A stretch of 64,000 bases of DNA from Candidatus Tectimicrobiota bacterium. Its GTDB lineage: Bacteria; Tectomicrobia; Entotheonellia; Entotheonellales; Entotheonellaceae. Position 1 is the stretch's first letter. Each line of letters opens with the position of its first letter. A model generated the notes under the pieces. That model did no database searches. It saw only the letters and a list, made by a program, of their open reading frames with translations, and was not told the origin of the DNA. Of the stretch, positions 45,847-50,747 are shown one piece after another. The stretch spans positions 186,001 to 250,000 of the forward strand of contig BPKO01000004.1 in assembly GCA_026005175.1 (NCBI GenBank). Direction: 5' to 3'. Both the position numbers and the translations under genes were made by a program.

Positions 45847-46804
45847 ATGCTCAGGTACACCGTGAACCGGATTTTGTACCTCATTCCGGTGCTGTTTATC
45901 CTCTCGGTGGCCGTCTTTTCGTTCGTCCCACTTCCTGCCCGGCGACGTCATCGACATTCTGGCCGGAGAGGAGGACGTCAGCGACCCGGCGGTGCGCAAG
46001 GCGATGGAGAAGGAGCTCGGCCTCGACAAGCCCATTTACGTCCAGTACCTGGTGTGGCTGGGGCGGGTGCTGCGGGGCAACTTTGGCACTTCTCTGGTGA
46101 CGCGACGCCCTATCTCTATTGAGCTCTTCGAGCGCATCCCGGGCCCACCATCTACCTGGCGGTGGTGGGGGTGGCCCTGTCGCTGGCCATTGCCATCCCT
46201 CTGGGCACCCTGGCCGCGGTCAAGCGCAACACCCTTGTCGACTACCTGGCACAACTGGTGTCGCTCTTTGGCATTTCGATTCCCGAGTTCTGGTTTGCCA
46301 TCATGTGCATCCTGCTCTTTTCCCTCTACCTGGGCTGGCTGCCCTCCTCGGAGTACTACAGCCCCTTTGAAGACCTCGGCCGCAGCCTCAAGCACCTCAT
46401 TTTGCCGGCCGCGGCACTGGGCTTCCGCCAGGCGGCCATCACTACCCGCCTGACGCGCTCGAGCATGCTCGACGAGGTGCAAAAAGAGTACGTCGATACC
46501 GCCCGCGCCATGGGGCTGCCCGAGCGCAAGGTGATTTACAAGTACACGCTGCGCAAACGCCCTGATTCCCACCCTCACCATCAGCGGGCCTGCAGCTGGC
46601 GCAGCTGCTGGGCGGCACGGTGGTCATCGAGACCATTTTTGCCTGGCCGGGCGTGGGGCGCGCCCCTCTACGAGGCGATCATCGCTCGCGACTTCCCCGC
46701 TCATCCAGGCGGGAGTGCTCATCCTGGGCACCACGGTGGTGGTGATCAACCTGCTGGTGGACCTCATGTACCGCGTCTTGAATCCGCGGGTACGCCTGGC
46801 ATAA
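45847..46804 (+). pseudogene. dppB: ABC dipeptide permease DppB (six indels; pseudogene or sequence errors)
   Basis: Reconstructs to about 317 aa with typical DppB blocks (MLRYTVNRILYLIPVLFILS, FLPGDVIDILAG, LGTLAAVKRNTLVDYL, AWPGVGR). I place indels by restoring family sequence: extra C near 45928, missing C near 46142, extra A near 46556, extra G near 46586, extra C near 46664, extra C near 46697. These corrections bring the frame precisely to the TAA at 46802, so the order is right. All sit in homopolymer or repeated-base runs. The gene lies between intact dppA and dppC. Sequencing error is more likely than decay, but six in one gene is exceptional here. Confidence 0.85.
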
Positions 46805-46816
46805 GGGACAAAGACG

Positions 46817-47770
46817 ATGCGCACGGTCCGCACCCCCCTGCAACCCGACGCCCTGCTCGACCTCGAGGTCCAGGCACCAACGCTGCGGGATTCCCTGCGC
46901 CGCGTTGGCCAGTCCCTGGCCAACGCGGCGCGCGAGCTCTACAAGAGCAAGACGGCCTTCATCGGCGCCATCATGCTGGCGATTCTCTTTACCGCCTGTC
47001 TCCTCACCCCCTATATTGACCGCTACAGCCCGGTGAAGCAGAACTACCGCGAGCTGCTGCAGCCCCCCAGCGCCAAGCACTTCTTCGGCACCGACCGCTA
47101 CGGACGTGACATCTGGTCGCGGGTACTGTGGGGCGGCCGCCGTCTCATCACCATCAGCCTGCTGGCGGTCTCGCTGGGGCTGGTGCTGGGGGTGCCGTTT
47201 GGGGCGCTGTCGGGCTACTACGGCGGCTGGATCGACACCGTGGCCATGCGCCTTGTCGATGCCTGGCTGGCCTTTCCCGGGCTGCTGTTCTATCTCATTC
47301 TCATCACCATCGCCCGCGAGTGGAAGCTCGAAGGGGTGTGGAACGACGCCGCGCTTGTCTTTGCCCTGGGGGTGGCCCAGGTGCCGCGCCTGGCCCGCCT
47401 GGTGCGCGGCACGGTGCTCGCCGAAAAGGAAAAGGAGTACGTCGAGGCCTCGCGGGTGATCGGCGAAAGTGACCTCTACATTGCCCTGCGCCAGATCCTG
47501 CCCAACTGCCTCTCGCCGGTGATCGTGCAGGCCACCGTGTCGCTGGGCTTCATCTTGCTCGTCGTTGCCGCCCTCTCTTTCCTCGGCCTGGGCTCGCCCC
47601 CTCCCACCCCGGACTGGGGGGCCGACCTCAACCTGGCGCGCGACCATATGGAAACCCGGCCCTACGTCGCCATTTTTCCCGGCCTGGCCATCTCCTACGC
47701 GGTGCTCGCCTTTAACCTGTTTGGCGACGGCCTGCGCGACATCCTCGACCCGCGAACCGTGGAGCGCTAG
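46817..47770 (+). CDS. dppC: ABC dipeptide permease DppC
   Basis: 317-aa inner-membrane permease, about six helices. It shows FGTDRYGRDIWSRVLWGGRRL, the cytoplasmic EAA loop (EYVEASRVIGESDLYIALRQILPN) that touches the ATPases, and a C-terminal DPRT region. The N-terminus is an extended cytosolic tail. It starts 12 bases after dppB. Intact, in contrast to dppB. No ATPase gene follows; a hairpin lies after it. Confidence 0.93.
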   Translation: MRTVRTPLQPDALLDLEVQAPTLRDSLRRVGQSLANAARELYKSKTAFIGAIMLAILFTACLLTPYIDRYSPVKQNYRELLQPPSAKHFFGTDRYGRDIWSRVLWGGRRLITISLLAVSLGLVLGVPFGALSGYYGGWIDTVAMRLVDAWLAFPGLLFYLILITIAREWKLEGVWNDAALVFALGVAQVPRLARLVRGTVLAEKEKEYVEASRVIGESDLYIALRQILPNCLSPVIVQATVSLGFILLVVAALSFLGLGSPPPTPDWGADLNLARDHMETRPYVAIFPGLAISYAVLAFNLFGDGLRDILDPRTVER

Positions 47771-47808
47771 CCAACCGCCCGCCAACGCCCTGACGCCTCT
47801 GCACCGCA

Positions 47809-47833
47809 CGGCTGAGACCGCCCGTCTCAGCCG
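47809..47833 (+). terminator. Hairpin after dppC
   Basis: Perfect 10-bp stem CGGCTGAGAC / GTCTCAGCCG with a five-base loop, 38 bases past the stop. No T run follows, so it may stabilise the 3' end or be a weak or Rho-assisted terminator. Confidence 0.5.
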
Positions 47834-47893
47834 CGAGAGTCCCCTCCTGCCACCGCACGCCTCGCCCCGCCTGCCCCGCCGCTCGCCCAGAGG

Positions 47894-47910
47894 TGGCACG
47901 AATCTTGCTT
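47894..47910 (+). promoter_or_regulatory. Sigma-54 (RpoN) promoter
   Basis: TGGCACG-AATC-TTGCTT: the GG of the -24 element (47895-47896) and the GC of the -12 element (47907-47908) are separated by the required 10 bases, and the match to TGGCACG-N4-TTGCW is complete. It faces the small gene at 47968, FGE-fold gene and ExeA-like gene. An activator binding site upstream was not identified. Confidence 0.85.
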
Positions 47911-47967
47911 CTGATTAAAGCCGAGAAACCACCGCAAGCAACGTCAGGGACGGGAGGAACGGACAAG

Positions 47968-48278
47968 ATGTCGCTATCACATGAGCCGGAAGGGGCGTAC
48001 GAGCCGCGCGCGGCGATCCACACCACGCTGTTTGACTTGGGCCGCTGCCGTCCAAGATGCGGCGCCGCCAGGAGACGATGCCCTGGTGGTGGCCACCCTG
48101 GTACACCTGCTGCAGACGCACCGCATCACGTACTGGGGCCATCCCGGCGTGTTCGAAACGTGGCGCGACGAGGCAGCGCAGCACGCGTTGCCGGAATTTG
48201 CTTGAGGAAGCCGGCACCCTTGCCGATAAGATCCCGAACCTGTCTCCAGAGCGCGGTGGCATGGCCTGTCGCCAGTAG
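47968..48278 (+). pseudogene. Small unknown protein, broken by two indels
   Basis: ATG 47968 follows GGGAGGAACGG, 58 bases downstream of the sigma-54 promoter. The reading frame continues only if one G is removed near 48040 and one T near 48200, giving a protein of about 100 aa: MSLSHEPEGAYEPRAAIHTT, then VVATLVHLLQTHRITYWGH, and a C-terminal LLEEAGTLADKIPNL, ending at TAG 48276. I recognise no family. Three overlapping frames with consistent composition and a good ribosome site suggest a real gene with sequence errors rather than non-coding DNA. Confidence 0.5.
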
Positions 48279-48344
48279 CGTTTTGGCACGGCGCAAGGGC
48301 CGGAAAACGCCGAAGCCCGCGAGATGATGCAAGAGGAACCGAGC

Positions 48345-49205
48345 ATGTGGCCTTTCCAGCGCCGAAAACACCCTGCCGATCCCCATCTGGCCTTTCAGGG
48401 GACGGTCGACGCCTGGCTGCGTCGCCCGCGCGACGGCCGCACGGCGCTGCTGCCTCCCGCCGCAAGGCAAGAAGTACCCCAGCCGGCCACGGCGGCCGAC
48501 GGCTGCATCCGCAACGAACAGGACGACACGCCGCTGGTGCTGATTCCAGAAGGCACGTTCCTGGCTGGGGAAGGACGCCAGGAGGTGTACTTGCCGGCTT
48601 TCTACCTCGCCCTGCATCCGGTGACCAACGCCCAGTACAAGCGCTTTATCGAGGCCACCGGGCACCGGCCACCCGACCAGAGCGACTACGGTGACCCTGT
48701 GTGGCGCGGGCGCGACTTCCCCCCTGCCCTGGCCGACCACCCGGTGGTGTGCGTGAGTTGGGAGGATGCCGAGGCTTACTGCCGCTGGGCGGGGCTGCGC
48801 CTGCCCAGCGAGCTGGAGTGGGAAAAAGGCGCCCGCGGCCTCGACGGCCGCCGGTATCCCTGGGGCGACACTTGGCAGCCGCAGGGCTGCCGCTGGGCCG
48901 GCAACCGCGGTCAGGAGACCACCTGCAGCGTGTGGAGCTACCCCCAGGGCCGCAGTCCCTGGGGGCTGTACCACATGGCGGGCAACGTGCTGGAGTGGTG
49001 CGCCAGCGCCTACGTGACCGCAGAGCTCTCCCCGGAGGCCGCAAATGGCTTTAAGCCCGCCACTGCCCCCGGCGTGCGGGTGCTGCGCGGCGGCTCCTGG
49101 CGTACCGCCCATCCCGCCTTCTTGCGCTGCAGCGCCCGTCTTTTCAGCGAGGGAAGGCTGCGCTACGCCACCGTCGGCTTTCGCTGCGCCAAGACGGCTC
49201 CCTAA
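48345..49205 (+). CDS. FGE-sulfatase (SUMF1) fold protein
   Basis: 286 aa. ATG 48345 (AGAGGA upstream) preferred; an ATG at 48324 would add seven residues. The FGE-fold runs from about 65: [75 protein letters not shown], and the NVLEWCAS block, then [10 protein letters not shown]. True formylglycine-generating enzymes need two Cys in the last motif; here one is retained (FLRCSAR) but the other is replaced by Pro. It is therefore probably not a sulfatase activator. Second gene of the sigma-54 unit. Confidence 0.85.
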
Positions 49206-49223
49206 ACCGCCTGGAGTTCCGGC

Positions 49224-50747
49224 ATGTACCTTGAGTTCTACGAGCTGCACAAAGCGCCGTTTCACATCACCCCCGACCCCGAGTTCCTCTTTCTCAGTCC
49301 CAGCCACAAAGCAGCGCTGGGTGCGATCATTTACGGCATCGAGGAGCGCCAGGGCTTTGTGGCCATCACCGGCGAGGTGGGCCTGGGCAAAACCACCCTT
49401 TTGCGCTCGTACCTCGAGCGCGTCGATCCGCGCACGCTGAAGACCATTTACATTTTCAACGCCAACATTGCCTTTCCCGAGCTGCTTAGGCTCGTTGCCC
49501 GCGAGTTTGGCCTAGAGGCCGAGGGCGAGGACCCCTTTGCCCTGCTGCAGCGGCTGCAGCAGGCCCTGGTCGAGGAATACCAGCGCGGGCGCAACGTTGC
49601 CCTCATCATCGACGAGGCGCAGAACATGCCCGTCGAGACGCTGGAAAACCTGCGCCTGCTGTCCAACCTGGAGACGGCCACCGAAAAGCTGCTGCAAATC
49701 GTGCTGGTGGGCCAGCCCGAGCTGGAACACAAGCTGGCACGGAGCGAGCTGCGCCAGCTCAAGCAGCGCATTGTCATCCACGCCACCCTGCAGCCGCTGA
49801 CCCCGGAGGAAAGCCTGGCTTACATCCGCCATCGCCTGGCCAAAGTGACCACCAGCCCCACGCCCATTTTTAGCAAGCGGGCCCTCAAGTGCATCGTCGA
49901 GCACGCCCGCGGCACCCCGCGCCTGCTCAACATCCTGTGCACCAACGCCTTGATTGCCGGCTTTGGCTACCGCCAGCGGCCCATTCGCGCGCGCACCGTG
50001 CGCCAGGTCATAGCCGAGCTGGAGGGCCGCCGCCTGCCACGCCGCGCCTGGGCCGTGGCGGCGACCGCCGCCGGCGTGCTGCTGGCGGCGGGCCTCTTTT
50101 GGGCCTCGCCCTACCGGCCGCTGCTGCTGTCGCGCTTTTCTTCTTCGCCGGCGGCCACCCTGCGGGACCTCTACAGTGCGCTGCCGCAAGTGACGCAAAA
50201 AATGCGCCACAAGCTGCTGCCGCAGGCGCCTTCTGCTCCCGACAACGGTGCCACCTCGCCACTCCCCACCGGCAACGGGCACCGCCAGACGGTGGCCCCT
50301 GCTCCCGCGGCTTACCTGGCCCCCTTGCCGGCGCCGCCGGCGGCGGAGAGCACGCCGCCGCCCGGCGACCCTGAAGCCTCCCCGGCAGCGATCGCCACCC
50401 TGCCGGCACCCCCGGCGTCGCCGGCAGAGCCCCCGGCGCCCCCCGCGCCGCCAGGAGAGCCGTCGGTACCGCCCATCGCCCTCCCGGCTCCGGCGGCCGC
50501 GCCCCCGCCCGCCGCAGAGAGCCCCTCTCCCAGCCCGCCGCCCGCGGCTCCCGGCCGCCGCTTTCCGGTGCTACACACGGCGCAGAAAGGAGACTACGTC
50601 TCCAAGCTGGCCAAAGTCATATACGGCTATACCGACGACGCCCTCATTGCCTGGATTGCCAAGCACAACCCCCACCTCAAGGACATCAACCACATCGAGG
50701 TGGGCGACGTCATTCTCTTTCCGGCACCGGAGAGCCCAAGAGAATAG
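49224..50747 (+). CDS. ExeA/GspA-like AAA ATPase with C-terminal LysM-like domain
   Basis: 507 aa. Residues 1-270 are an ExeA/GspA-type AAA ATPase: MYLEFYELHKAPFHITPDPEF, Walker A GEVGLGKTT (about 50-58), Walker B ALIIDEAQNM, sensor VGQPELE. One transmembrane helix is near 275-295, then a Pro/Ala-rich periplasmic linker (about 330-450), then a LysM-like domain (LHTAQKGDYVSKLAKVIYG, INHIEVGDVILFP) that could hold peptidoglycan. In ExeAB the ATPase helps a secretin cross the cell wall. It follows the FGE-fold gene by 18 bases and is sigma-54 driven. Confidence 0.9.
   Translation: MYLEFYELHKAPFHITPDPEFLFLSPSHKAALGAIIYGIEERQGFVAITGEVGLGKTTLLRSYLERVDPRTLKTIYIFNANIAFPELLRLVAREFGLEAEGEDPFALLQRLQQALVEEYQRGRNVALIIDEAQNMPVETLENLRLLSNLETATEKLLQIVLVGQPELEHKLARSELRQLKQRIVIHATLQPLTPEESLAYIRHRLAKVTTSPTPIFSKRALKCIVEHARGTPRLLNILCTNALIAGFGYRQRPIRARTVRQVIAELEGRRLPRRAWAVAATAAGVLLAAGLFWASPYRPLLLSRFSSSPAATLRDLYSALPQVTQKMRHKLLPQAPSAPDNGATSPLPTGNGHRQTVAPAPAAYLAPLPAPPAAESTPPPGDPEASPAAIATLPAPPASPAEPPAPPAPPGEPSVPPIALPAPAAAPPPAAESPSPSPPPAAPGRRFPVLHTAQKGDYVSKLAKVIYGYTDDALIAWIAKHNPHLKDINHIEVGDVILFPAPESPRE

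Follow-up and report, generated by a model that had tools for sequence, protein, structure and literature searches.

A sigma-54 promoter with upstream half-sites shared with PEP-CTERM promoters precedes a small helical protein, an FGE-fold protein and an ExeA-like ATPase in a Candidatus Tectimicrobiota genome

In a 64-kb stretch of DNA from a Candidatus Tectimicrobiota bacterium (the whole stretch analysed, hereafter the window), a -24/-12 element faces three co-oriented genes, which raises the question of what controls these genes and what they do at the cell envelope. The preliminary description took them for a sigma-54-controlled unit of a small protein, an FGE-fold protein and an ExeA-like ATPase with a LysM-like end. 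All three genes were recovered, the first one being broken by a frameshift:

47894–47909, + strand: sigma-54 -24/-12 promoter TGGCACGAATCTTGCT (TGGCACG-N4-TTGCTT), an exact pattern match
47968–48208, + strand: small gene encoding 78 aa once a +1 step at TTGG is allowed for, a helical family of the phylum (frame join, profile and homologues)
48345–49205 (longest ORF from 48324), + strand: FGE/C-type-lectin-fold protein with no visible signal peptide and without the FGE catalytic cysteines, kin of DGR variable proteins (PF03781, alignment and tree)
49088–49186, + strand: approximate counterpart of the variable region of DGR targets (GGSW...GFRC; alignment)
49224–50747, + strand: ExeA/GspA-like membrane ATPase, comprising an AAA_22 and TIGR03015 part (residues 1–267), a hydrophobic stretch (about 275–298), a Pro/Ala-rich arm and the LysM-like end (profiles and tree)
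50556–50744, + strand: LysM-like C-terminal domain (Pfam, AlphaFold model and Foldseek)

The reading that we prefer, at slightly better than even chances, is that 47803–50747 is a PrsK/PrsR sigma-54 operon making a wall-anchored accessory for PEP-CTERM/exopolysaccharide surface assembly.

The promoter is the sole exact -24/-12 match in the window and carries the GG and GC dinucleotides within TGGCACG-N4-TTGC. The pattern is enriched in the source genome (G000), with 18 exact copies of TGGCACGNNNNTTGCW in a scan of the whole assembly, where the reversed control pattern does not occur at all; the genomes of relatives hold 1–3 exact sites each. Judged by its sequence, the promoter is genuine, as had been proposed. 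The sigma factor gene rpoN was found neither in the G000 assembly (3.99 Mb, 14 contigs, 77.5% complete) nor in that of the sister genome (G003), although sigma-54 activators are numerous, and is present in three of the five genomes of the class. Since G000 encodes about ten strong sigma-54 activators besides its 18 perfect sites, and since rpoN occurs in those three genomes, its absence probably reflects a gap in the assembly and was discarded as an argument against sigma-54 control.

The preliminary description was right about the promoter and missed a dyad upstream of it, which is shared with PEP-CTERM promoters. The elements of this region are as follows:

47803–47818, + strand: predicted activator site 1, ACCGCACGGCTGAGAC, matching 10/14 positions of the palindrome GTCTCAGNNCTGAGAC
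47809–47833, no strand assigned: perfect 10-bp dyad CGGCTGAGAC-CGCCC-GTCTCAGCCG (N5 spacer), with two exact half-sites as in PEP-CTERM promoters (sequence)
47824–47839, + strand: predicted activator site 2, GTCTCAGCCGCGAGAG, matching 11/14 positions, its centre 21 bp from that of site 1

The full activator site appears to be GTCTCAG-NN-CTGAGAC. Relative to the first base of the -24 element, the 10/14 and 11/14 matches lie at -91 and -70, and two sites of at least 10/14 in this promoter compare with 0.061 expected per 300 bp from the background rate across the window. Exact GTCTCAG/CTGAGAC half-sites occur twice upstream of the window promoter and twice upstream of each of three other sigma-54 sites (L048, L049 and L056); a fourth (L053) has one exact and one single-mismatch copy. 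All four precede genes for PEP-CTERM or exosortase-dependent proteins, and none of the remaining 13 sigma-54 promoters of G000 has an exact GTCTCAG half-site. Searched genome-wide, TCTCAG-N45-75-TGGCNCN6TGC gives three matches (control 0), namely the window promoter, one PEP-CTERM promoter and one site that looks coding. As a separate observation, a further locus (L046) has GTCTCAG-type sites of 10/14 and 11/14 at the same -91/-70 positions, with a GSDH/heme-binding-like protein downstream.

The candidate regulator is encoded in the same genome. PrsR scores 627.3 bits with TIGR02915 (cut-off 502.6), PrsK is split over two frames (236 and 119 bits, cut-off 300) and exosortase A (XrtA) reaches 224 bits (cut-off 208). 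These three genes adjoin the PEP-CTERM gene at L056 with its sigma-54 site. According to Haft et al. 2006 (PMC1569441), proteobacterial PEP-CTERM genes are preceded by a sigma-54 site from which an activator motif of 17 nt is separated by 62.8 +/- 10.6 nt, and PrsR was predicted as the binder of that motif; for the Aquincola PEP-CTERM gene pepA, dependence on RpoN1 has been demonstrated (PMC9850573). The window promoter resembles this regulon in its spacer of about 60 nt between upstream motif and sigma-54 site and in the presence of PrsR, PrsK and XrtA in the genome. It differs in that the operon encodes no PEP-CTERM protein and in that its GTCTCAG-NN-CTGAGAC motif is not the published motif 1, which ends in TTTACA, so that the PrsR link depends on co-occurrence within one genome.

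The motif statistics are partly after the fact, since the half-site was noticed in the window first and then in PEP-CTERM promoters. When every possible 7-mer was allowed, as many promoters contained a repeated 7-mer in 24 of 300 randomised sets; unbiased enrichment was thus not significant and was dropped as stand-alone support, leaving the motif case to depend on the coincidence with the PEP-CTERM promoter class. Six further PEP-CTERM genes of G000, used as an independent test, have neither the upstream motif nor a sigma-54 site. Based on the shared GTCTCAG half-sites and on PrsR, PrsK and exosortase A in the genome, the operon probably belongs to the PrsK/PrsR-RpoN (PEP-CTERM) regulon, with PrsR as the predicted binder of the dyad.

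A one-base frameshift near 48037–48041, at a TTGGG run, breaks the small first gene, whose N-terminal half lies in the frame of 47968 and whose C-terminal half lies in the +1 frame. If TTGG is read as a single step at L24, a 78-aa product results, MSLSHEPEGAYEPRAAIHTTLFDLAAAVQDAAPPGDDALVVATLVHLLQTHRITYWGHPGVFETWRDEAAQHALPEFA; its alignment with homologues from G003 and from a further relative (G004) runs through the break, and a family profile detects both halves in the two frames. The break is likely a sequencing indel, because further genes of this assembly are also frameshifted. The assembly looks rich in indels, with prsK, recJ and gspD broken as well, and with an oppB-like oligopeptide ABC transporter permease at 45847–47019 of the window broken over several frames. 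By its profile matches, the small-protein family is limited almost entirely to the small source phylum, being found in three of five genomes there and, as a weak match, in one of 22 genomes from elsewhere. The predicted model is helical and found no fold match, and the window copy has no Pfam or NCBIfam match. There was only a weak match to an Rrf2 tail, and no convincing plasmid match was found.

The gene order was compared with that of relatives. In the sister genome G003 the FGE-ExeA pair and the convergent rnhA are kept (56/45% identity for FGE/ExeA), with no small gene, sigma-54 site or exact GTCTCAG half-site upstream of the pair. In G003 the small gene follows a perfect sigma-54 site on a different contig, and likewise in G004 it has a perfect sigma-54 site and no FGE or ExeA beside it. 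Among 78 loci with FGE relatives from other genomes, ExeA adjoins in one, solely the G003 record. Wider conservation of the trio was not found in any of these comparisons, and in this respect the preliminary description was not supported. From the separate locations in G003, the set is composed of two modules, sigma-54 promoter with small gene and FGE with ExeA, joined in the source genome; on these comparisons, the three genes form a set in that genome alone. As an aside, the small-gene homologue and perfect sigma-54 site of G004 (L058, G004:C445) precede a secreted-looking protein resembling DUF1571.

This separation favours the best-surviving alternative, in which the sigma-54 promoter drives the small gene alone as an old module of the phylum and FGE-ExeA simply lies downstream, with its own promoter. 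It agrees with the G003 and G004 small-gene orthologues behind perfect sigma-54 sites with no FGE or ExeA adjoining, with the pair standing alone in G003 and with the 136-nt gap between small gene and FGE gene in the window, a length that speaks against taking their co-transcription for granted. Against it, the three genes are co-oriented, no terminator-like site was found on the + strand between small gene and FGE gene, and no sigma-70-like promoter was found in that region. We regard this alternative as possible but rather unlikely, and prefer the PrsR-controlled operon, in which read-through would carry transcription into the FGE-ExeA pair.

The second gene product matches PF03781 with 183 bits in a Pfam search and shares this fold with FGE, EgtB and GldK of the SUMF1 family. 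Unlike them, it has lost both FGE cysteine positions and lies far below all equivalog cut-offs. Both of the positions after GGSW that we take to be those of the FGE active-site cysteines are replaced, which makes formylglycine formation unlikely. The FGE-fold assignment of the preliminary description thus stands, while the kinship with DGR variable proteins had been missed. The closest relatives of the protein include variable proteins in DGR reverse transcriptase loci (L072, L074, L079 and L096); it shares a sequence clade with these RT-linked targets and the same GGSW..FRCA.R....R....GFRC frame. Unlike DGR variable proteins, it has neither an RT nor a template repeat in the window or in the other G000 stretches examined, and its variable positions are largely conserved between genera. 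NNY codons occupy 12 of the 13 hypervariable positions in the window copy, a weak signal (p = 0.011), and eight of the 13 are identical to G003, compared with 11 of 20 positions elsewhere. The pattern agrees with a scaffold whose diversification has ceased, and the variable face looks frozen.

DGR-type arrangements with FGE-fold proteins were also seen at other loci. In G003 itself, L027 (G003:C147) has an RT motif IGHLTSQ...YLRYCDD, together with a variable copy of FGE fold and an N-rich copy that resembles a template. DGR-type RT motifs lie beside FGE-fold proteins at L072/L074, L079, L096 and L126, in MAGs labelled Deltaproteobacteria and Acidobacteriota. The FGE protein of L113, titled as a Klebsiella pneumoniae MAG, groups with Deltaproteobacteria/Binatota, and this contig is probably mislabelled.

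A defence or recognition module, in which a protein that was once a DGR variable protein and is now frozen detects a ligand and passes the signal on through the ATPase, would account for an FGE clade that includes DGR targets adjoining RTs and for the FGE-fold target of the G003 DGR; a precedent exists in the DGR-diversified putative conflict systems described in PMC10907252. It is opposed by the lack of an RT and template repeat in the window, by the conservation of the hypervariable positions with G003 and by the absence of any effector gene among those seen here. Defence genes are not known to be typically under sigma-54/PEP-CTERM control, which also speaks against such a module, and we hold it to be very doubtful. 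In the preferred operon, the FGE-fold protein would instead be a cytosolic binding protein.

The ATPase matches AAA_22 with 103 bits and has intact Walker A (GEVGLGKT) and Walker B (LIIDEAQ) motifs, the G003 copy having DD for DE. At its C-terminus Pfam LysM scores only 12.3 bits; the AlphaFold model of this end has the beta-alpha-alpha-beta order and its PDB neighbours in Foldseek are mostly LysM, though weak. A C-terminal LysM-like domain, as described before, is thus supported by a model of moderate confidence and by weak structural matches. Taken with the hydrophobic stretch and the Pro/Ala-rich arm, it suggests a cytoplasmic motor domain with a wall-binding tail. The AAA part matches TIGR03015, the ATPase of XrtA/PEP-CTERM systems, over its full length. 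The protein differs from that family in its LysM tail, its location outside an EPS cluster and its score of 276.7 bits (cut-off 324.5); since the T2SS paralog of the genome scores higher (311), identification as the XrtA-associated ATPase by TIGR03015 was rejected. In the tree, the window ATPase and the G003 copy form their own clade (100/99), apart from T2SS-type (G000–G003) and EPS-cluster ATPases.

With ExeA/GspA and MshM, known from T2SS and MSHA pili, the ATPase has in common AAA_22, a TM and a periplasmic end of peptidoglycan-binding type. It differs from them in its LysM-like end, its FGE partner and the lack of a secretin or GspB nearby, and from ExeA/GspA also in belonging to a clade separate from the genome's own T2SS ExeA. 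The view towards which the preliminary description leaned, that the ExeA-FGE pair is a secretin-assembly accessory of a type II secretion system, matches the ExeA domain layout and is nevertheless highly improbable, as no secretin was seen near the pair in the window or G003 and a separate ExeA paralog adjoins gspC/D/E-like genes and groups with the G001–G003 copies, so that the secretin/GspB linkage belongs to that paralog.

The PrsK/PrsR-controlled operon remains the preferred reading. In it, PrsR would bind the GTCTCAG dyads 55–91 bp upstream of the promoter and, phosphorylated by PrsK, open the -24/-12 promoter. Transcription would yield the small helical protein first, with read-through adding the FGE-fold protein and the ATPase. 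The latter would cross the membrane once, extend a periplasmic arm and bind peptidoglycan with its LysM domain, while the FGE-fold protein may serve as adaptor or substrate-binding partner of the AAA domain. By analogy with ATPases of the ExeA type in XrtA clusters and in T2SS, the ATPase would most likely act as an energised, wall-anchored accessory in PEP-CTERM/exopolysaccharide surface assembly, in keeping with the envelope theme recognised earlier. In a bolder version, which we consider quite unlikely, the LysM-anchored ATPase, controlled by PrsR/sigma-54, would have as its recognition subunit a domesticated DGR variable protein with frozen specificity, the two forming a new accessory machine of the exosortase surface pathway. 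Should the preferred reading hold, the PEP-CTERM regulon would comprise sorted cargo together with its own wall-anchored ATPase, offering a way into the problem of how export and assembly of exosortase-dependent proteins are driven. It would also exemplify a binding scaffold of retroelement type that is apparently fixed for one task.

Another upstream motif was seen during the promoter comparison. Hsp20-like and Spy/CpxP-like sigma-54 promoters of G000 (L050) and G003 (L038), and also L051, have TGCGAC/GTCGCA in common, which suggests a different activator conserved between genera.
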